Source: Agrococcus lahaulensis DSM 17612 (GTDB taxonomy: Bacteria; Actinomycetota; Actinomycetes; Actinomycetales; Microbacteriaceae). Taken from it: a stretch of DNA of 45,369 nucleotides. Shown here one piece after another: positions 3,181-13,470 of this stretch. The translations under genes were made by a program, and so were the position numbers. Within the stretch, counting starts at the first letter, position 1; every line of letters begins with the position of its first letter. A model generated the notes under the pieces. It was not told the DNA's origin. It did not search any database and saw only the letters and a list, made by a program, of their open reading frames with translations. The DNA lies in the NCBI RefSeq assembly GCF_000425105.1, contig NZ_AULD01000018.1, positions 1 through 45,369 on the forward strand, given 5' to 3'.

Positions 3181-6100
3181 GTGGTGACCCCCGCGGAATC
3201 TGACATCGCCGCATCGACGGATCGCGAACTCTCGACCAACGATGCTGTGGCCGACGATACATCGGCCCCGAGCGTCGACCCGTGGGTCCTCGAGGCAGAG
3301 CGGAGCGCATCCGCCCCCCGGTTCCGCCCGCCCGCGCTCGGGCCGGTGCCGAAGGGGCCCGTCTACCTGCTCGGGCTGCTCGCGGCCCTCCGCGCCGCCG
3401 GCCTCGTGCTCGTCGCCGAGGCGATCGCGCGCGGCATCGGCGCGCTCGCCGCGGGCGACCTCGCCGCCGAGACCACGCGGCTCATCGTCGTGCTCGGCAT
3501 CGCCGGCGCGCTGCTCCGCGCGGGCGCCGAGTGGGCGACGTCGGTCGTCGCGCGGCGCATCGCGACCTCGGTGAAGCAGCGCATCCGCGGCAGGCTGTGG
3601 CGGCAGATCGCGGCGGGCGACGCCGCGGGCGGCGGCACCGCCGTGCTCGCCGCCGACGGGCTCGACGACCTCGACGACTACTACGTGCAATCGCTGCCGG
3701 CGACGATCGCGGCCGCGGTCGTGCCGCTGCTCGTCGGGATGCGCGTGCTCGGCGCCGACTGGCTGAGCGCCGCCATCATCGTCGTGACGATCCCGCTCAT
3801 CCCCTTCTTCATGATCCTCATCGGCCGCCACACGCAGCAGCGCACCGACGAGGCGCTCACGGCGCTCACCCGGCTCGCCGACCACCTCGCCGAGCTCGCG
3901 CGCGGGCTCCCGGTGCTCGTCGGCCTCGGCCGCGTCGACGAGCAGGCGAAGGCGCTCGAGCAGCTGCAGGGCCGCTACCGCGAGCGCACGCAGGAGACCC
4001 TCCGCTGGGCCTTCCTCTCGGCGCTCGCGCTCGAGCTCGTCGCGACCATCTCTGTCGCGATCGTCGCCGTCTTCCTCGGCCTGCGGCTCCTGAACGGCAC
4101 GATGGAGCTCGAGCCCGCCCTCGTCGCGCTCATCCTCGCGCCCGAGGCCTACGCGGCGCTCCGGCAGGTCGGCACCGCCTTCCACGCCTCGCAAGACGGG
4201 CTCTCGGCGCTCGACCGCTCGCAGGCGATCCTCGAGCGGCCTGCGCCCGCCGACGTGCGTGGCGCATCCGGCTCCGGCCCTATCCGCCTCGAGGCGCTCG
4301 CGGTGCAGTACGCCGGCCGCGACGCGCCGACCCTCGCGGGCATCAGCGCCGAGCTCACCGGCGTCGTCTCGATCGCCGGACCCTCGGGCGCCGGCAAGTC
4401 GACCCTCCTCGGCGCGCTCGCGGGAGCGCTGCCCGCCGACGCCGTCGTCACCGGCCGCGTGCACGGCGTGGGGGCGGATGCGGTGGGCTGGGCCCCGCAG
4501 GCACCTCGCGCGTTCGCCGGCTCGCCCCGCGCCGAGCTGGCGCTCTACGGCGCCGATCCGCTCGCCGCGCTCGACGAGCTGGGGCTGGGTCACGTCGCCG
4601 ACGCGGCCGTCGCGGAGCTCAGCCCCGGTGAGCAGCGGCGCCTCGCCGTCGCCCGCGCCCTCGCGCGCGTCGACGCCGGCGCTCGGCTGCTCGTGCTCGA
4701 CGAGCCGACCGCGCACCTCGACCGCGCCTCGGCCGATCGCGTGCGCGCGGCGATCCTGCGCCGCGCCGACCGCGCCATCGTCGTGCTCGCGAGCCACGAG
4801 CCCGAGACGACGGCGCTCGCGACGATGACCGTGCCGGTCGGTGCCGCCCCGCTGCCTGTCCCTCCTCCGCTGGCTGAGGAGGGCGCGGACGCAGTCCGCA
4901 CCCGTCTCGAAGCCCCTGCTCCCGCTGCAGGCGGTCTCGATACGCCCGACGCGCTCCGCGCGCCGGGCTACTCGACCAACGAAGGGGGCGCGCCGAGCTA
5001 CTCGACCAACGGAGGAGGCTGGCGTCTCACGATCCGCTCCCTCCTCCGCCCCCACTTCGCATCCTGGGCCGGCTCGATCGCGATGGCGGTCATCGCCGTC
5101 TCGATGGGTCTCGCGCTCACGGCCGTCTCGGGCTGGCTCATCGTGCGGGCGAGCATCGAGGAGCACATCATGATGCTGCTGCTCGCGATCGTGGGTGTGC
5201 GCGCGTTCGGCATCTTCCGCTCGGTCGGCCGCTACGCCGAGCGCCTCCTGACGCACGACGCCGCCTTCAAGGTCGTCGACCTGCTGCGCGTGCGGCTCTG
5301 GCGGTCGATCGCGGCGCGCGGCGCGGGCTCCCGGCGGCTGCTCGAGGGCGGCGCGCCGCTCGACTACCTCGTGACGCTCGCCGACGAGCTGCGCGACCAG
5401 CTGCCGCGGGTGCTGCCTCCCCTCGCGGTCGGCGTGCTCGTCATCGCCGGCACCGGCGTGACGACGGCCTTCATCGCGCCGCAGCTCACGTGGATCGTCG
5501 TGACGACGCTCGTGATCGCGACGCTCGTGGCGTCGGCGCTCGCGATCTGGTCGGAGCGCGGCGCTGCCGCCGCTCGCGTCGGCGCCAGGTCGCGGATCGT
5601 GCGCGGCACCGCAGCGCTCGCCGCCGCCGCGCCGGACCTGCGCGGGAACGGCGTCGAGGGCGCGGCGCTCGCGCAGCTCGACGACGCGAGCGCTGAGCTC
5701 TCGACCGCCGAGCGGCGCGGCGCGTGGGCCGCGGGCCTCGGCTCCGCCGTCGTGACCGCCGCGCTGGCGGCGCTCGCGTGCCTCGTGCCCGTGCTGGCTC
5801 CGACGCTGACGGCCGAGGCCGCATCCGTCATCGCCCTGCTCACGCTCGCGCTGCTCGAGCCGCTCGGCGACCTCGTGGCGGCCGCGCACCGCGTGCCGGC
5901 GCTGCGGGCGGTGCTCGCGCGGCTCGCGCCCGTGCTGCGGCCGGCGCCGCAGCCGGAGTGGGGCGACGCCGAGCCGCCCTCGCCCGTCGGCGCCGTCTCG
6001 CTCGACCAGGTGAGCGTGCGCTACCCCGGCATGCCGCAGCCCGCGGTCGCCGACGTGTCGGGACGCGCGGAGCGGGGCCGGTGGCTCGTGCTCGACGGCC

Positions 6101-6747
6101 CCTCGGGCTCGGGCAAGTCGACGCTGCTCTCGGCGATCATGGGGGCGCTGCCGGCGGAGGGCGGCGCGGTGCGCGCCGCCGGCTCTACCTCCGCCTCTGT
6201 CGCCTCCCCCTCGGCAGATATAGGGCGAGTCGCTGACATGGCGGACCCTTCGGAGCGACACGCCCTATACGCGGCTGCGAGCGCGGCGGGCGGCGTGCCG
6301 CTCACCGAGCTCGACGAGCGCGCGTGGCGCTCGCGCGTCAGCTGGTGCCCGCAGGACGCCTACGTCTTCGACTCGACGCTGCGCGGCAACCTGCTGCTCG
6401 CCCGCACGCGCGACGATGCGCCCGACGACGCCGCGATGCGGGCGGCGCTCGAGCAGGCGGGGCTCGCGCGCCTCGTGAGCTCGCTCGGCGAAGGCCTCGA
6501 CACGCGCGTCGGCGCGGGCGGCTCGGCGCTCTCGGGCGGCGAGCGCCAGCGGCTCGCCGTCGCGCGGGCGCTGCTGACCCGCGCCGACGTCATCCTGCTC
6601 GATGAGCCCACCGCGCACCTCGACGCGCCGACCGCCGCGGCGATGATGGCCGACGTCCGCGAAGCGACGGCCGACCGCGTCGTCGTGCTCGTCTCGCACC
6701 GCCACGACGACCGCCTCCCGGCCGACGAGATCGTCGCGCTCACGTAG
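3181..6747 (+). CDS. cydDC: Fused CydD-CydC thiol/heme-linked ABC exporter
   Basis: This 1188-residue protein joins two complete ABC half-transporters. In the CydDC family the exporter is required for cytochrome bd assembly. The first half has membrane helices from about residue 60 to 310, then an ATPase with Walker A GPSGAGKS near residue 400, signature LSPGEQRRLAVARAL near 480 and Walker B LLVLDEPTAHLD near 503. The second half has helices from about 620 to 920, Walker A GPSGSGKS near 973, LSGGERQRLAVARAL near 1117 and ILLDEPTAHLD near 1137. The two are normally separate genes (cydD, cydC). The linker (about 555-615) and a loop in the second ATPase each contain a palindromic repeat read in frame. 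Start is one of two consecutive GTG codons. cydAB lies 3 kb downstream on the same strand. Confidence 0.92.
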   Translation: MVTPAESDIAASTDRELSTNDAVADDTSAPSVDPWVLEAERSASAPRFRPPALGPVPKGPVYLLGLLAALRAAGLVLVAEAIARGIGALAAGDLAAETTRLIVVLGIAGALLRAGAEWATSVVARRIATSVKQRIRGRLWRQIAAGDAAGGGTAVLAADGLDDLDDYYVQSLPATIAAAVVPLLVGMRVLGADWLSAAIIVVTIPLIPFFMILIGRHTQQRTDEALTALTRLADHLAELARGLPVLVGLGRVDEQAKALEQLQGRYRERTQETLRWAFLSALALELVATISVAIVAVFLGLRLLNGTMELEPALVALILAPEAYAALRQVGTAFHASQDGLSALDRSQAILERPAPADVRGASGSGPIRLEALAVQYAGRDAPTLAGISAELTGVVSIAGPSGAGKSTLLGALAGALPADAVVTGRVHGVGADAVGWAPQAPRAFAGSPRAELALYGADPLAALDELGLGHVADAAVAELSPGEQRRLAVARALARVDAGARLLVLDEPTAHLDRASADRVRAAILRRADRAIVVLASHEPETTALATMTVPVGAAPLPVPPPLAEEGADAVRTRLEAPAPAAGGLDTPDALRAPGYSTNEGGAPSYSTNGGGWRLTIRSLLRPHFASWAGSIAMAVIAVSMGLALTAVSGWLIVRASIEEHIMMLLLAIVGVRAFGIFRSVGRYAERLLTHDAAFKVVDLLRVRLWRSIAARGAGSRRLLEGGAPLDYLVTLADELRDQLPRVLPPLAVGVLVIAGTGVTTAFIAPQLTWIVVTTLVIATLVASALAIWSERGAAAARVGARSRIVRGTAALAAAAPDLRGNGVEGAALAQLDDASAELSTAERRGAWAAGLGSAVVTAALAALACLVPVLAPTLTAEAASVIALLTLALLEPLGDLVAAAHRVPALRAVLARLAPVLRPAPQPEWGDAEPPSPVGAVSLDQVSVRYPGMPQPAVADVSGRAERGRWLVLDGPSGSGKSTLLSAIMGALPAEGGAVRAAGSTSASVASPSADIGRVADMADPSERHALYAAASAAGGVPLTELDERAWRSRVSWCPQDAYVFDSTLRGNLLLARTRDDAPDDAAMRAALEQAGLARLVSSLGEGLDTRVGAGGSALSGGERQRLAVARALLTRADVILLDEPTAHLDAPTAAAMMADVREATADRVVVLVSHRHDDRLPADEIVALT
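4933..5010 (+). repeat. Palindromic repeat inside the cydDC linker
   Basis: The sequence begins GGTCTCGATACGCCCG (4933 on) and continues to a GGGCTACTCGACCAACG arm ending near 4981. The GCTACTCGACCAAC arm is then repeated at 4997-5010. The two arms are imperfect reverse complements, so the unit can form a hairpin. I recall this pattern as a dispersed intergenic repeat of Microbacteriaceae genomes. Here it lies in frame, encoding duplicated GYSTNEGGAPSYSTNGGG between the two exporter halves. It disrupts nothing because this is a flexible linker. Confidence 0.75.
6219..6269 (+). repeat. Inverted repeat inside the second ATPase domain of cydDC
   Basis: TATAGGGCGAGTCGCT at 6219-6234 and AGCGACACGCCCTATA at 6254-6269 are reverse complements at 15 of 16 positions, separated by 19 bases. 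The AT-rich ends stand out from the surrounding GC-rich gene. The hairpin encodes extra residues (around SADIGRVADMADPSERHALY) between Walker A and the Q-loop region SWCPQDAYVFD. It resembles a small mobile palindrome that landed in frame. Confidence 0.75.
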
Positions 6748-8192: not shown

Positions 8193-8243
8193 CGCGCGCG
8201 TGGCAACGATCTGCACGGTGCCGCGGTCGGCGCGGCCTCAACG

Positions 8244-8440
8244 CCGCAAGTGCGTGCACATCGATGGCCGAGGCGGGTCTCGAGCCGCGGCCATGTGCAC
8301 CGACTTGCGGTCTGCAGCGCGTCGAAGCCGCAACAGCGTGCACATCAATGGCCGAGGCGGGTCGCGAGCGGCGGCCATGTGCACCGACTTGCGGTCTGGG
8401 GTGCGGCGAAGCCGCAAGAGCGTGCACACGGATGCGCGGG
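8244..8440. repeat. 84-bp tandem repeat with internal hairpins
   Basis: Two full units start at 8244 and 8328, and a partial third at 8412, with an exact 84-bp period. Each full unit holds an inverted repeat: CGCAAG..GTGCACAT..GGCC on the left and GGCCATGTGCACCGACTTGCGG on the right, with GAGGCGGGTC-type loops. Together with 7935-8045 and the cydC remnant, this fills the 670 bases between the DUF2384 gene and the M56 protease gene. No coding function is apparent. Confidence 0.85.
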
Positions 8441-8474
8441 CGGGCTCGCCGACAGCCGGGCGCCTGCGAGCGCC

Positions 8475-9290
8475 CTACGCGACGAGCCGCTTGAAGCGGT
8501 CGCTCCCCCGCGACGACCCCGCCGCGTCGACCTCGGCCCCCGGCACGCCGCTCGCGCCGACCTGCAGGATCGCGCGCGCGAGCACCTCGTCGCGCACCTC
8601 GCGGCGCGCGTGGTCGTCGGCGAGCATCTCGACGAGCGCGGCGACCTCCGCGTCGGCGAGCGCCGCGACCGGGAACCACGGCAGCGCCGAGCGCCAGGCG
8701 CGGAACGCGAGCAGCAGCAGGTCGTGCCGCTGCTCGACGTGCGCGCGCTCGTGCGCGATCACCGCGACGAGCTCATCGGCGTCGAGCCGGTCGAGCAGCC
8801 CTTGCGAGAGCACCGTCACCGAGCCGGCGCCGCGCGGCAGGCAGTAGGCGACGGGCACCGCGTCGTCGAGCACGCGCGTGCGCGCCCGCGTCGGGTGGGG
8901 CGACGAGAGCATGTCGAGCAGCTGCAGGTGCCGGCGCCGCTGCGCGGTGACCTGCACGATCGTCACGGCGAGGTGCGAGAGCAGGTAGATCGTGAAGACC
9001 GCCGCCGGGATCGCCGCGAGCCACGGCTGCCCCGGCGCGATCGCGAAGCCCGTGAGCGCGAGCGCGCCGATCATCGACAGCCCTCCCGCGAGGCCGACCG
9101 CTTGCCACACGAGCAGCGCGATGACGGGCGCGCGCATCGGCCACGCCGCGCGCGAGAGCCACACAGGCACGGGCCACGCGAGCATGAGCGCGACGAGCCA
9201 CAGCATCGCCGCGCCCCACACGATCGCGCCGTGCGGGATCACGAGCGCTCCGCCCGGCACCGCGGCAGCGGCGATCAGCGGCACGGGCAC
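8475..9290 (-). CDS. M56 (BlaR1/MecR1-type) membrane metalloprotease
   Basis: A 271-residue membrane protein. The first 115 residues contain about four hydrophobic segments, followed by a cytoplasmic metalloprotease domain. The zinc motif HERAH is at residues 180-184 (HExxH), and a downstream Glu in EMLADDHAR is a candidate third ligand. In the BlaR1/MecR1 family such proteases trigger removal of a BlaI-type repressor. Unlike BlaR1 there is no C-terminal penicillin-binding sensor domain, so the signal is unknown. The start is GTG 9288-9290, 13 bases after the blaI stop, so the two genes form an operon divergent from cydAB. This pairing suggests the protease relieves repression of the cytochrome bd genes. 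Confidence 0.85.
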   Translation of the reverse strand: MPVPLIAAAAVPGGALVIPHGAIVWGAAMLWLVALMLAWPVPVWLSRAAWPMRAPVIALLVWQAVGLAGGLSMIGALALTGFAIAPGQPWLAAIPAAVFTIYLLSHLAVTIVQVTAQRRRHLQLLDMLSSPHPTRARTRVLDDAVPVAYCLPRGAGSVTVLSQGLLDRLDADELVAVIAHERAHVEQRHDLLLLAFRAWRSALPWFPVAALADAEVAALVEMLADDHARREVRDEVLARAILQVGASGVPGAEVDAAGSSRGSDRFKRLVA

Positions 9291-9303
9291 GAGCGCGATC
9301 CGC

Positions 9304-9672
9304 TCAGCCGTCGCCGCGGAGGAGCTTGCGCAGCACGGCGGCGTCCTCTTCCGAGACCGAGCCGACGAAGCGCTCGAGCACGGCCATCCGGTCGCGCGAC
9401 TCGCCCAGCACCTCGTGCATGAGCTCGGCGACGTGGTCGGCGCGTGAGGCGACCGGCGAGTAGCGGTAGGGCCGCACCGTGCGGTCGGAGGCGACGAAGC
9501 CCTTCTTCTCGAGCCGCGAGAGCACCGTCAGCAGCGTCGTCGCCGCGAGCGGGCGGCCGGCGGCCTCGAGCTGCTGCTGGACGTCGTACGCCGAGAGGGC
9601 CTCCGGCGAGTCCCAGACGGCGTCCATCACGACGCGCTCGAGCTCGCCGAGCGCGGGCATGTTCTTGCGCAT
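9304..9672 (-). CDS. BlaI/MecI/CopY-family transcriptional repressor
   Basis: A 122-residue winged-helix repressor beginning MRKNMPALGELERVVMDAVW. The recognition helix region TTLLTVLSRLEKKGFVASDRTVRPYRYSPV and the C-terminal dimerisation helices are typical of the family and the length is standard. The start at 9670-9672 is supported by GGGAGG seven bases upstream; an in-frame ATG at 9697-9699 lacks one. It sits first in an operon with the M56 protease and is divergent from cydA. The 126-base intergenic region carries TTCTAC/GTAGAA palindromes. It therefore probably controls both its own operon and cydAB. The family is known from beta-lactamase control, so a respiratory target is inference from position. 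Confidence 0.9.
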   Translation of the reverse strand: MRKNMPALGELERVVMDAVWDSPEALSAYDVQQQLEAAGRPLAATTLLTVLSRLEKKGFVASDRTVRPYRYSPVASRADHVAELMHEVLGESRDRMAVLERFVGSVSEEDAAVLRKLLRGDG

Positions 9673-9714
9673 CGTGCCTCCCGGGCCAGTGTGACGCATC
9701 CGTCGTGAATCCGA

Positions 9715-9773
9715 TTCTACAACGAGTCGAACTTCTTCTATGCTGTGTAGAAGTGGTTCTACGCGGCGTAGAA
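9715..9773. promoter_or_regulatory. Predicted BlaI operators between blaI and cydA
   Basis: Three related 17-bp sites lie in 59 bases. TTCTACGCGGCGTAGAA (9757-9773) has perfect outer arms. TTCTATGCTGTGTAGAA (9736-9752) has perfect five-base arms. TTCTACAACGAGTCGAA (9715-9731) is degenerate. The spacing is 21 bases centre to centre, about two helical turns, so repressors could bind the same face. BlaI-family proteins bind TACA/TGTA-type dyads, and these sites are close variants. The array sits 14-84 bases upstream of the cydA Shine-Dalgarno and 43-101 bases from the blaI start. Confidence 0.75.
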
Positions 9774-9798
9774 CTCAGCGCAGCGAAGGAGGGTCGGC

Positions 9799-11388
9799 GT
9801 GGAAGCGCTCGACATCGCCCGGTGGCAGTTCGGCATCACGACGGTCTACCACTTCATGCTCGTGCCGCTCACGCTCGGGCTCGGCATGGCCATCGCCGTC
9901 ATGCAGTCGATCTGGGTGCGCACCGGCGACGAGAAGTTCCTGCGCATGGTGAAGTTCTGGGGGAAGCTCTACCTCATCAACTTCATCCTCGGCGTGGCCA
10001 CCGGCCTCGTGCAGGAGTTCCAGTTCGGCATGGCGTGGAGCGAGTACTCGCGCTTCGTCGGCGACGTCTTCGGCGCCCCGCTCGCGCTCGAGGGGCTGCT
10101 CGCGTTCTTCGCCGAGTCGACGTTCCTCGGCATCTGGATCTTCGGCTGGGGGCGCCTGCGCAAGGGCCTGCACCTCGCGGCGCTGTGGTGCGCGGTGATC
10201 GGCTCGTGGCTCTCGGCCTACTTCATCATCGTCGCGAACTCGTGGATGCAGCACCCCGTCGGCGTGGAGATGACCGCCGAGGGGCGCCCCGTCATGACCG
10301 ACATCTGGGCGGTGCTGACGAACAACACCGCGATCGCCGCCTTCACCCACACGATCTTCGGCGCGCTCATCGTCGCCGGCATGTTCCTCATCGGCATCTC
10401 CTGGTACCACCTCTGGCGGCGGCGCCACGACGGCATCGACCGGGCGGATGCGTCGGGTCGCGTGATCGTCGGCGAGGCCGCGTCGGTGCCGGGCCGCGAC
10501 CGCACCGACCACGGGGTCTGGCTCTGGTCGCTGCGCGCCGGCGCGGTCGTCGCGATCGTCGCCTTCGGCGGCACCGCGCTCACGGGCGACTGGCAGGGCA
10601 AGCTCATGTACGAGCAGCAGCCGATGAAGATGGCCTCGGCCGAGGCCGCGTGCCACACCGGCTCGTCGTTCTCGGTGCTCTCGATCGGCGACCCCGGCAC
10701 GACGGATTGCCGCGACGTCGTCACGCTCATCGAGATCCCCGGCGTGCTCGGCTTCCTCGGCACCGGCGAGTGGGGCGCCGACATGCCCGGCATCACCGAC
10801 CTCGAGCCGCAGTACGTGAACCAGTACGGCGAGACGATCCCCGACGACGAGCTCTACGGCTCGTTCGCCGGCACCGAGGTGAACTACGTGCCGCCGATGT
10901 GGGTCACCTACTGGGGCTTCCGGCTCATGATCGGGCTCGGCGGCATCACGGCCTTCGGCGCGCTCGTCGCGCTGTGGCTCACGCGCCGCGGCACCGTGCC
11001 GACGTCGCCGTGGATCATGCGGCTCGCGATCCTCGGGATCCTCGCGCCGTTCGCCGGCAACATCGCCGGCTGGATCTTCACCGAGATCGGCCGCCAGCCG
11101 TTCGTCGTCGCGCCGAACCCCGACCCCTCGGGCATCGACGGGGTGTTCATGTTCACTGCCGCGGCCGTCTCGCCCGGCGTCACGATCGGCGAGCTGCTCT
11201 TCTCCGTCATCACGCTCACCGCCGTCTACGCGGTGCTCATGGTGGTCGAGATCTTCCTGCTCGTGAAGTACGTGCGCGGCGGGGTCGCGAGCGCCATGCC
11301 CGAGCTCGCGCCGCGGCACGACCGCGGCGACGACCCGGGCGACCGACCTGACGGCGAGCGGGACGACGTGCTCGCCTTCGCCTACTGA
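9799..11388 (+). CDS. cydA: Cytochrome bd quinol oxidase subunit I
   Basis: A 529-residue membrane subunit that oxidises quinol and carries hemes b558, b595 and d in the cytoplasmic membrane. Visible signatures are the N-terminal ARWQFGITTVYHFMLVPLTLG, with His18 as candidate heme b595 ligand, and the quinol loop motif GDWQGKLMYEQQPMKMASAEA (about 264-283), with Lys277 and Glu282 matching the quinol-binding pair. GWIFTEIGRQPF lies near residue 424, the family's GWxxxExGRQP box. The start is GTG 9799 with AAGGAGGG six bases upstream. It is followed by cydB after 45 bases. The BlaI-like operators lie just upstream. The length fits the short Q-loop class. Low-oxygen or stress induction is likely for the family. 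Confidence 0.96.
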   Translation: MEALDIARWQFGITTVYHFMLVPLTLGLGMAIAVMQSIWVRTGDEKFLRMVKFWGKLYLINFILGVATGLVQEFQFGMAWSEYSRFVGDVFGAPLALEGLLAFFAESTFLGIWIFGWGRLRKGLHLAALWCAVIGSWLSAYFIIVANSWMQHPVGVEMTAEGRPVMTDIWAVLTNNTAIAAFTHTIFGALIVAGMFLIGISWYHLWRRRHDGIDRADASGRVIVGEAASVPGRDRTDHGVWLWSLRAGAVVAIVAFGGTALTGDWQGKLMYEQQPMKMASAEAACHTGSSFSVLSIGDPGTTDCRDVVTLIEIPGVLGFLGTGEWGADMPGITDLEPQYVNQYGETIPDDELYGSFAGTEVNYVPPMWVTYWGFRLMIGLGGITAFGALVALWLTRRGTVPTSPWIMRLAILGILAPFAGNIAGWIFTEIGRQPFVVAPNPDPSGIDGVFMFTAAAVSPGVTIGELLFSVITLTAVYAVLMVVEIFLLVKYVRGGVASAMPELAPRHDRGDDPGDRPDGERDDVLAFAY

Positions 11389-11433
11389 CCGCATCCGCAA
11401 CTGATCCGCCCGACCGCACTGGAGGCATCCGCC

Positions 11434-12501
11434 ATGGAACCGCTCGCCATCACCTGGTTCGTGCTCATCGCCGTGCTCTGGATCGGCTACCTGCTGCTCG
11501 AGGGCTTCGACCTCGGCGTCGGCATGCGCATGCTGTTCGCCTCGCGCGACGAGCGCGAGCGCCGCGTCATGCTCAACACCATCGGACCCGTGTGGGACGG
11601 CAACGAGGTGTGGCTCATCACCGCCGGCGCCGGCACGTTCGCCGCCTTCCCGGAGTGGTACGCATCCCTCTTCTCGACGCTCTACGTGCCGCTCACGCTC
11701 GCGCTCGTCGGGCTCATCCTGCGCGCCGTGTCGATCGAGTGGCGCGGCAAGGTGCACACGCAGCGGTGGCGCTCGGCGTGGACGGCCGGCATCGGCGTCG
11801 GCTCGCTCATCGCCGCCTTCTGCGTCGGCGCGATGCTCGCGCTCACGACGCTCGGGCTGCCGATCGACGGCAACGGCGACCGCGTCGGCGGCCCGTTCGT
11901 GTGGTTCGGCTGGCCGGCGATCGTCGGCGGCCTCGCGGTCGTGGGCTTCTCGCTCGCGCACGGCTCGACGTTCCTGGCGCTCAAGGCGGATGGGTCGGTG
12001 CGGTCACGCGCGGCGGTGTTCGCCGAGCGGTGGTCACCCGCGTGCCTCGTGCCCGCGGCGATCTGGGCCGTCTGGGTGCAGCTCGAGCACGGCGGCAACC
12101 CGCTGTCGTGGGCGCTCGTGCTGCTCGCGGTGGTCGGCGGCGCGTGGGGCTGGGTGCAGGCGCGGGCGCGGCGCGAGGGACTCGCGTTCACGGGCTACGC
12201 GGCGTTCGGGCTCTTCGGAGTCGCGGCGATCTTCGCGGGCGTCTTCCCGAAGGTGCTGCCCTCGACGATCGACCCGGCGTTCGACCTGACGCTCATGAAC
12301 GCGTCGAGCAGCCCGTACACGCTCGGCGTCATGACGGTCATCACGGCGGTGAGCCTGCCGATCATCCTCGGCTACCAGGCGTGGAGCTACTGGGTGTTCC
12401 GCAAGCGCGTGACCCCCGGCATGATCCCCGACGCGCACATCGTGCTGCCGGCGACCCTGCGCGACCGCGACGCGGACCGCGGCGTCGCCCCGACCGCGTA
12501 G
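11434..12501 (+). CDS. cydB: Cytochrome bd quinol oxidase subunit II
   Basis: A 355-residue integral membrane protein starting MEPLAITWFVLIAVLWIGYLLLEGFDLGVG, the conserved first helix of CydB. It also shows NTIGPVWDGNEVWLITAGAGTFAAFP, the family's most recognisable stretch (residues about 49-75). It pairs with CydA to form the bd oxidase. The ATG has GGAGG nine bases upstream. It lies 45 bases after cydA and is clearly in the same operon. After the stop come three palindromes that may terminate or stabilise the transcript. No small CydX/CydS-type peptide was recognised nearby. Confidence 0.96.
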   Translation: MEPLAITWFVLIAVLWIGYLLLEGFDLGVGMRMLFASRDERERRVMLNTIGPVWDGNEVWLITAGAGTFAAFPEWYASLFSTLYVPLTLALVGLILRAVSIEWRGKVHTQRWRSAWTAGIGVGSLIAAFCVGAMLALTTLGLPIDGNGDRVGGPFVWFGWPAIVGGLAVVGFSLAHGSTFLALKADGSVRSRAAVFAERWSPACLVPAAIWAVWVQLEHGGNPLSWALVLLAVVGGAWGWVQARARREGLAFTGYAAFGLFGVAAIFAGVFPKVLPSTIDPAFDLTLMNASSSPYTLGVMTVITAVSLPIILGYQAWSYWVFRKRVTPGMIPDAHIVLPATLRDRDADRGVAPTA

Positions 12502-12526
12502 CCGCCCCTCGCCCGGCGGCCGTGCC

Positions 12527-12618
12527 GCAGAGTGCCGGAACTCTGCTGCTCTGCGGCCCCGAAACAGCAGAGTGTCGGCACTCTGCGGTTCCGGGGCAGC
12601 AGAGTGTCGGCACTCTGC
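12527..12618. repeat. Three 20-bp palindromes after cydB
   Basis: GCAGAGTGCCGGAACTCTGC (12527-12546), GCAGAGTGTCGGCACTCTGC (12567-12586) and an identical copy at 12599-12618 each form an eight-base-pair stem with a four-base loop. Copies two and three are perfect stems and copy one has a mismatch. Spacing is 40 and 32 bases. The cluster could act as a terminator or mRNA 3' stabiliser for cydAB, or be a mobile palindrome family. No T-run follows. Confidence 0.8.
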
Positions 12619-12681
12619 TGCTCTTGAGGTCGGCAGACCGCACAGTGACGGAGCTCCATTGCGGGCGCGGCACCGCGTCCC

Positions 12682-12735
12682 TTGCCGCGCCCGCTCGCGC
12701 GGCGTATCATGGACGTTGCTTAGGCGTAGGCAACG
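12682..12735 (+). promoter_or_regulatory. Promoter and operator of the RHH/PIN module
   Basis: TTGCCG (12682-12687) and TATCAT (12705-12710) with a 17-base spacer make a good vegetative-type promoter. Just downstream, GTTGCTTAGGCGTAGGCAAC (12716-12735) is a near-perfect dyad overlapping the probable transcription start. It ends ten bases before the antitoxin ATG. That position is what is expected for autorepression by the RHH antitoxin. Confidence 0.65.
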
Positions 12736-12745
12736 GGAGGTCGGC

Positions 12746-12991
12746 ATGGTAGCGAAGACGGTAGGCATCGCGGTCTCCGACGATCTGCGCCCTGCGCTCG
12801 ACGAGGTGGTGGAGCACTTCGGCAACGGCAATCGCAGCGAGTTCCTCCGACTGGCGGTGCGCGAGTTCCAGGGCAGGCTTCGCCTCGAGCGCCTGCACGC
12901 GATCCGCGGCCGGGCGAGAGAAGAGCGCGGCGGGCGCCGCTACTCAGCCGACGAGGTGCTCGACATGATCCGCGAGTCTGCGGCGTCGTGA
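12746..12991 (+). CDS. Ribbon-helix-helix antitoxin of a PIN toxin module
   Basis: An 81-residue protein opening MVAKTVGIAVSDDLRPALDE, then VEHFGNGNRSEFLRLAVREF. This is the beta strand, helix, Gly/Asn turn and second helix of a CopG/RHH DNA-binding domain. The tail RRYSADEVLDMIRESAAS is a short amphipathic helix able to contact a toxin. GGGAGG lies seven bases before the ATG. Its TGA overlaps the GTG start of the PIN gene by four bases (GTGA), so translation is coupled. It should repress the promoter at 12682-12710 through the dyad between them. Confidence 0.8.
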   Translation: MVAKTVGIAVSDDLRPALDEVVEHFGNGNRSEFLRLAVREFQGRLRLERLHAIRGRAREERGGRRYSADEVLDMIRESAAS

Positions 12992-13470
12992 TCGACGGGG
13001 CGACCGCGGTCGTCTTCGACGTCAACGTCTACCTCGACTACATCCTCGGTGACGATGGCAGCTGGCCCCTGCTGCCCGACGTCCCGCCCACGACGGACAA
13101 CGCATCCGCCGATGCGGTCGCACTGGCCTTCTCCGCGCGCTTCCGCCTGTACTGCTCGCCCCACATCCTGCGCAACGTGGCCCGCGTCATGCGCCTCACC
13201 GGCCACACCGAAGCGACGATCGAGGACTTCTGCGCGGCGGTCGTCGAGATGTGCGAGTTCTCGGGCGGCGGGGTCATCGAGCCGACACCGCGCGACCACG
13301 GCGTGCGTGACTTCGAGGACAACGCGATCGTCTCGTTGGCTCGCGATCCGGTCGTCGATGCCTTGATCATCGTCACGAGCGACGCGGATCTGCTCGACCT
13401 CGGGCCGGCATGGCACGGCCGCTTGATCATGCGCCCGCGGGCCTTCGTGCGCAGGGTCGTGGCGCCGTAG
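12988..13470 (+). CDS. PIN-domain toxin (VapC-like ribonuclease)
   Basis: A 160-residue PIN-domain protein. The N-terminal strand ATAVVFDVNVYLDYIL carries the first acidic catalytic residue (Asp11). The middle has LYCSPHILRNVARVM. DFEDNAIVSLARDPVVDALIIVTSDADLLDL supplies the remaining acidic residues and ends with the typical 'TsDaDLL' motif. These belong to the group annotated as PIN-family toxin components. The toxin would cleave RNA and be held inactive by the RHH partner just upstream. GTG 12988 overlaps the antitoxin stop. Unlike the two modules near 2-3 kb, this pair looks intact. Confidence 0.82.
   Translation: MIDGATAVVFDVNVYLDYILGDDGSWPLLPDVPPTTDNASADAVALAFSARFRLYCSPHILRNVARVMRLTGHTEATIEDFCAAVVEMCEFSGGGVIEPTPRDHGVRDFEDNAIVSLARDPVVDALIIVTSDADLLDLGPAWHGRLIMRPRAFVRRVVAP

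Follow-up and report, generated by a model that had tools for sequence, protein, structure and literature searches.

The stretch of DNA described here (the window) comprises 45,369 nucleotides of Agrococcus lahaulensis DSM 17612 and contains a compact locus in which the gene of a BlaI-family repressor faces those of cytochrome bd oxidase. The repressor gene and, downstream of it, that of a membrane protease form an operon on the minus strand, from which cydA-cydB diverges on the plus strand (Table 1). This order, proposed in a preliminary description of the window, is supported by both the open reading frames and Pfam profiles. The two minus-strand genes are separated by 13 bases after the blaI stop, and the gap between blaI and cydA is 126 bp. 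cydA starts with GTG, preceded by AGGAGGG, while the blaI start at 9672 has GGGAGG just ahead of it and an alternative in-frame ATG at 9699. The oxidase is assigned as a cytochrome bd on the basis of CydA and CydB profile matches above cut-off and the presence in the window of a CydDC exporter, which is required for assembly of cytochrome bd.

Table 1. Features of the BlaI-cydAB locus and the CydDC gene, with positions in the window.
Feature	Position	Strand	Details
Membrane zinc-protease gene (BlaR/M56-M48-like)	8475-9290	-	271 aa; HERAH at residues 180-184, downstream motif EMLADD, Cys150
BlaI-family repressor gene	9304-9672	-	122 aa; Pfam Penicillinase_R 80.3 bits, E 1.8e-22
Operator 1	9715-9731		TTCTACAACGAGTCGAA, one mismatch (GTCGAA)
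Operator 2	9736-9752		TTCTATGCTGTGTAGAA, one mismatch (TTCTAT)
Operator 3	9757-9773		TTCTACGCGGCGTAGAA, perfect
cydA, cytochrome bd oxidase subunit I	9799-11388	+	Pfam Cyt_bd_oxida_I 493 bits, E 6.5e-148
cydB, cytochrome bd oxidase subunit II	11434-12501	+	Pfam Cyt_bd_oxida_II 325 bits, E 4.4e-97; NCBIfam cydB above cut-off
Fused CydDC-type ABC exporter	3181-6747	+	1188 aa; NCBIfam CydD 612 bits, CydC 487 bits, both above cut-off

Operators, repressor and protease

The blaI-cydA gap contains three palindromes of the form TTCTAC-N5-GTAGAA, starting at 9715, 9736 and 9757 and spaced by 21 and 21 bp, just as had been described at the outset; one is perfect and the other two carry one mismatch each. 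They are not the product of chance. Nowhere else in the 2.68-Mb genome (13 contigs) is there a site with one mismatch or none; a reversed control pattern gives eight. Allowing two mismatches gives 43 sites genome-wide against 94 for the control and hence no further excess, so that no further BlaI targets are claimed in this genome. Twenty-five bases separate the third operator from the cydA start, and 42 the first operator from that of blaI; at these positions a repressor on all three could block one or both promoters. A scan of the gap for sigma-70 promoters found none.

For comparison we used 80 named relatives, the best of 554 confirmed and picked by BlaI similarity; some of their genomes also belong to the family sample considered below. 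Their gaps hold 188 operators with at most one mismatch, or 2.35 per locus, against 0.00075 for a shuffled 410-bp stretch, and 62 of the 109 distances between neighbouring operators are 21 to 26 bp. The half-sites are near-constant owing to the way in which sites were picked, but the five spacer positions vary freely, and the operators are therefore not simply unchanged copies. A palindromic operator upstream of the repressor's own gene is a trait of the BlaI/MecI/CopY family; it is present here and predicted in 79 of the 80 relatives.

The repressor clearly belongs to the Penicillinase_R family (PF03965; cut-off 22.6 bits) and is its single match in the genome, a profile search finding no BlaI paralogues. 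The nearest solved structure is 2g9w (profile E 2.5e-27), which we take to be BlaI of Mycobacterium tuberculosis, Rv1846c; MecI follows far behind (8e-6). The closest of the named BlaI relatives come from Agrococcus species (81-84% identity) and Microbacterium oryzae (83%). BlaI is reported to be cut between N101 and F102 (PMC3305447). Phe102 of the present protein aligns with this BlaI/MecI cut bond, with Arg rather than Asn at position 101, and the Arg101-Phe102 pair is kept in 80/80 relatives in the alignment.

The protease combines a membrane protein with an HExxH zinc-protease domain, as do BlaR1 and MecR1: a hydropathy plot places four hydrophobic stretches ahead of HERAH at 180, and HExxH recurs in the protease of all 80 named relatives. 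Its 271 residues match only M48/M56 and HtpX entries in Pfam and NCBIfam and no penicillin-binding domain, which bears out the earlier statement that the protein lacks such a sensor. Its profile matches in the PDB are all weak, the best being an HtpX homologue (E 0.0027). Proteases of the window's clade are about 270 residues long, most relatives measuring 300-340, and lack an extra hydrophobic stretch seen near the C-terminus of some longer relatives. Upstream of the zinc site, Cys150 is invariant in a 48-row protease alignment; a redox role for it is speculation.

Conservation of the module

Conservation of the gene order in relatives had been set beforehand as a test of the proposal, and the order proves to be retained. 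Among the named relatives, which include Agrococcus, Microbacterium, Arthrobacter and kin, Kocuria, Cryobacterium, Ruania and Dietzia, a divergent cydA is found at 76/80 loci, the protease at 80/80 and the operator at 79/80 (the exception being L166). A CydDC query also matches beside the cyd/BlaI locus in 75/80. The family sample has BlaI matches in 56 of its 100 genomes; of the best 29 loci other than the window's own, all have an adjoining protease and 28 have both cydA, divergent and within 1.5 kb, and a gap operator with at most one mismatch (L028 is the exception). BlaI matches occur in 108/248 genomes of the order sample, where 28 non-own loci, overlapping with the other samples, include 27 with cydA and 28 with the operator, and in 181/296 genomes of the class sample.

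Repressor, oxidase and operator also go together across whole genomes. Taking 87 bits or more as a strong BlaI match, 33 of 35 such matches (own genome included) lie beside cydA by coordinates; the exceptions are in G097 and in G069, the genome of which has no cydA match. Of the family sample, 75 genomes bear cydA; within these, an exact operator is present in 31/34 with a strong BlaI, 2/15 with a weaker one and 0/26 with no match (Fisher test, strong versus none, p 5e-14, uncorrected for kinship). The 100 family genomes give 104 forward operator hits as against 46 for the reversed pattern, which is a poor yardstick here since no more than two exact forward sites in all come from the 44 genomes that lack a BlaI match. 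For 18 genomes that have strong BlaI matches and belong to three other families, the figures are 97 for the operator pattern and 10 for the reversed control.

The pairing extends to more distant oxidases. At loci of family f36 (L277-L293), a CydA-like gene of 27-31% identity stands beside BlaI in 14/17 and an exact operator is present in 13/17; both such genes tested with Pfam were Cyt_bd_oxida_I. A third CydA type (37-39%) is known beside BlaI from five genomes, four of which hold TACTAC-N5-GTAGTA once genome-wide, in the BlaI-CydA gap; the fifth, G113, has no such site in its genome. Searched for in 15 genomes, this pattern was matched in eight, four of these being the cyd-gap sites; six sites in f22 genomes lie at none of the genes compared, and no site was found in four f15 genomes and G124. 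The half-site thus appears to change from lineage to lineage on a constant architecture. At L274 and L275 BlaI lies near a CydDC-like match, with no palindrome in the stretch examined. Four identity classes of CydA pair with BlaI in all, the classes being defined by our own cut-offs and the BlaI tree having few columns and little support, so that they show that several classes occur and no more. By class, Cys150 of the protease is present in 112/113, 25/25, 3/4 and 14/14 loci, and in 14/17 without CydA, these loci overlapping.

Operators elsewhere and neighbouring sequences

Some relatives carry the operator at additional places in the genome. Among the matches listed, 70 loci with an exact operator outside cyd were read. 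At 35 of these, energy or respiratory, haem or NO-detoxification genes lie downstream: 21/33 in group f6, which we take for Arthrobacter-like from its loci, 12/25 in the window's family and 2/12 in group f7. The energy-linked targets in the window's family are hmp (three loci: L036, L050, L051), the ATP synthase operon (L040 and L043, in the two relatives G085 and G040), ctaC-ctaD (L044, L264, L265), pta-ackA (L039, L041), the gap between a NarK-like transporter and moa genes (L038) and inorganic pyrophosphatase (L048); the other 13/25 loci are at other or unclear genes. At L035 (G001) the operator lies behind the 3' end of yceI rather than upstream of it, and this locus was excluded from the energy targets.

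In group f6, operators precede hemQ-hemH at eight loci, hmp behind an Rrf2/NsrR-like gene at five and qcrC after ctaE at one. Seven more occupy a divergent gap between yceI and a His-phosphatase-thioredoxin operon, which continues to CcdA and ResB, of cytochrome c maturation, in one locus checked by Pfam. One small conserved membrane protein has the operator ahead of its gene at eight loci, and four loci are elsewhere. The sites are recurrent: in seven f6 genomes (G304, G104, G280, G183, G252, G122 and G266), 26/28 exact sites outside cyd are at the same four loci. In f7 the pattern is weak, its two energy-linked loci being at hmp and ctaG. Taken together, the operator positions predict for relatives a recurrent regulon that covers respiration, the supply of haem, the maturation of cytochrome c and protection against NO.

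The small membrane protein of the eight f6 loci (L230, L231, L236, L243, L246, L251, L254, L257) sits behind a second small membrane protein and a MATE transporter. Neither small protein matches Pfam or NCBIfam, and both are candidates for genes of respiratory function.

Two genomes of other arrangement may be mentioned. Between cydA and a DedA/VTT gene, G072 has two exact operators plus a third with a mismatch (L055:4433-4494), and the sole, weak BlaI match (62.8 bits) is on another contig, making cydA a possible target in trans. In G083 (L053:1218-4343), a BlaI gene is followed by a 267-aa open reading frame without Pfam match, and an exact operator separates this BlaI gene from divergent genes for a PCuAC copper chaperone and a Dyp-type peroxidase; cydA lies on a different contig.

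In the window's own genome, a whole-genome pattern search that tolerated one mismatch located operators in the cyd gap only, and none at atp or any other gene. The CydDC fusion, having no operator of its own, is therefore not claimed as a BlaI target.

The sequences around the locus contain further features. Directly downstream of the protease gene, at 8209-8460, are three direct copies of an 84-bp unit, the later ones 79% and 63% identical to the first. Just after cydB, at 12524-12624, three palindromes CAGAGTG-N-CGG-N-ACTCTG are spaced by 40 and 32 bp; genome-wide the pattern gives 31 exact rows and 73 with at most one mismatch (both strands counted; control 0), often arrayed with a 40-41 bp period, as in a REP/BIME-like family. 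Also next to cydB, at 12572-13470, the gene of a PIN-domain protein (12988-13470, Pfam PIN_3) overlaps a 139-aa open reading frame without Pfam match, possibly as a toxin-antitoxin pair.

A candidate respiratory switch and its relation to known systems

From the computed genes, operators, conservation and co-occurrence we infer repression, cleavage and a signal as follows. BlaI dimers on the three operators would repress cydAB and, by autoregulation, the blaI-protease operon. The protease, itself without a sensor domain, would inactivate BlaI, probably by cutting Arg101-Phe102, once the respiratory chain runs short of oxygen, becomes over-reduced or is inhibited. Cytochrome bd, an oxidase of high oxygen affinity that withstands cyanide and NO, would then be made and take over. 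In relatives the response would extend to the supply of haem, the maturation of cytochrome c, NO detoxification, nitrate-linked functions and acetate overflow. We consider this scheme as a whole probable. Its parts differ in strength: binding of BlaI to the operators and control of cydAB are very likely, given the operators and the conserved linkage to cyd, and that much of the original proposal stands. The removal of BlaI by the neighbouring protease is favoured more cautiously, and on balance the signal seems to be respiratory rather than derived from the cell wall.

Several observations weigh against the scheme. Half of the further operator loci (35/70, and 10/12 in f7) precede no evident energy gene, and the wider regulon is not seen in the window's own genome, where only the cyd gap carries the operator. 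The operator is kept without cydA in the flank at 4/80 named loci, all from Arthrobacter; conversely, L166 and L276 carry cydA without the operator, and BlaI and protease in G097 stand apart from cydA. As to the protease, the term M56 used for it in the preliminary description is upheld by HExxH and context but not by the M56 profile, at 24.4 bits under the cut-off of 31; M48 passes instead (43 bits, cut-off 20.3), so that the label rests on context and motif. Finally, the words cydA and cytochrome are absent from the text of a later paper on M. tuberculosis BlaI (PMC12565901).

An obvious alternative is that envelope or beta-lactam stress is the signal, as in Bla and Mec, with cydAB among the outputs of a response to cell-wall stress. 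Switching upon exposure to beta-lactams is the classical role of BlaI/BlaR pairs, amoxicillin/clavulanate raises both blaI-blaR and cydAB in M. tuberculosis (PMC5473688), and Bacillus licheniformis BlaI leaves its DNA upon binding a peptidoglycan dipeptide (PMC3305447). Against this, the present protease has no match to a penicillin-binding domain, no beta-lactamase or penicillin-binding protein is found among those genes flanking the further operators, a part of all, that were run through Pfam or NCBIfam, and the operator precedes genes of energy, haem or NO functions at 35/70 loci. We regard an envelope signal as unlikely.

BlaI might also control cydAB and yet be released by a small ligand or through its own level, the protease having another substrate. 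Release by ligand is known for BlaI/MecI (PMC3305447), and the shorter protease of the window's clade, devoid of the C-terminal hydrophobic stretch, would suit a different role. The unbroken adjacency of protease and BlaI in the named loci, the equally constant zinc motif and the Arg-Phe pair at the known cleavage position, each 80/80, make this explanation improbable.

That the operators serve autoregulation of blaI and the protease alone, cydAB being a mere neighbour, would accommodate the four Arthrobacter loci with BlaI, protease and operator. It is very unlikely in view of the linkage to cyd in 76/80 named relatives and with four classes of CydA, of the tandem operators that extend to within 25 bases of cydA, and of G072, where two exact operators lie just upstream of cydA and the weak BlaI is encoded on another contig.

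We rejected, as the least plausible reading, a CopY-like copper repressor with cydAB as a copper-linked target: a weak match to the CopY_TcrY model TIGR02698 (29.7 bits, cut-off 121.95) and the PCuAC-linked BlaI of G083 are in its favour, but CopY requires C-terminal cysteines, and BlaI, like 19 of 20 aligned rows, has no cysteine at all and is therefore unlikely itself to be a thiol, Fe-S or CopY-type metal sensor.

Actinobacteria with a blocked main oxidase are protected by cytochrome bd, which in well-known systems is controlled according to oxygen or redox state by ArcBA, ResDE, Rex or Fnr. The candidate switch described here differs from these in consisting of a repressor and a membrane protease, and is neither two-component nor NADH-sensing. 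Tentatively, BlaI and sensor-less protease could be a widespread actinomycete respiratory regulator acting by repressor proteolysis, a counterpart of ArcBA, ResDE and Rex. The protease might sense the electron transport chain within the membrane, perhaps via Cys150, and penicillin sensing in firmicutes might be a special use of an older envelope or respiration switch. This broader idea is possible rather than likely. The operator, as an exact pattern, can be searched for across genomes, and the locus makes the question of the signal directly testable.

With BlaI-BlaR1 and MecI-MecR1 of Staphylococcus aureus and B. licheniformis, the locus shares a winged-helix repressor, palindromic operators, an adjoining zinc membrane protease and a divergent target; the cleavage position of those repressors aligns with Arg101-Phe102, where Phe is retained and Arg stands in place of Asn. 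It differs in the lack of a penicillin-binding domain, in the terminal oxidase as target and in the half-site TTCTAC. Clostridium thermocellum BlaI_0696, characterized by a DAP-seq motif and gel shifts, recognizes inverted GTCTAT repeats 5 nt apart (PMC8457756); it thus resembles the present case in its 6-bp half-sites, 5-nt spacer and self-regulation, with two sites per target, but has three target operons, none described as respiratory in the available text (PMC8457756).

A further close parallel is the BlaI (Rv1846c)/BlaR (Rv1845c) pair of M. tuberculosis, whose BlaI is the nearest structure (2g9w). There, BlaI is reported to bind the promoters of cyd and of ATP synthase (PMC5473688, citing Sala 2009; PMC5874750) and to bind and repress Rv1303, co-transcribed with ATP synthase (PMC12565901); the available text of PMC8265638 has no match for cyd, BlaR or ATP synthase. 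The BlaR of all mycobacteria is described as lacking the extracellular sensor domain, with an unexplained trigger (PMC5473688). A connection between BlaI and cyd is therefore known in outline, and to that extent the original suggestion was not novel. In searches of the open-licence literature, in so far as its text was available, we found no description of a blaI-protease/cydAB module or regulon outside mycobacteria; as far as these searches reach, a module dedicated to cyd, with its operator and its wide distribution, and the respiratory, haem and NO regulon appear to be new. In contrast to M. tuberculosis, the pair here directly adjoins cydAB, with a triple operator between them; the relatives' regulon has haem, cytochrome c, NO and acetate-overflow genes, with no beta-lactamase among the annotated genes. 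The window's genome shows only cydAB and the pair itself as visible targets, and the locus may be seen as a minimal version of the system in an environmental relative, with one repressor, one protease, one target operon and three operators.

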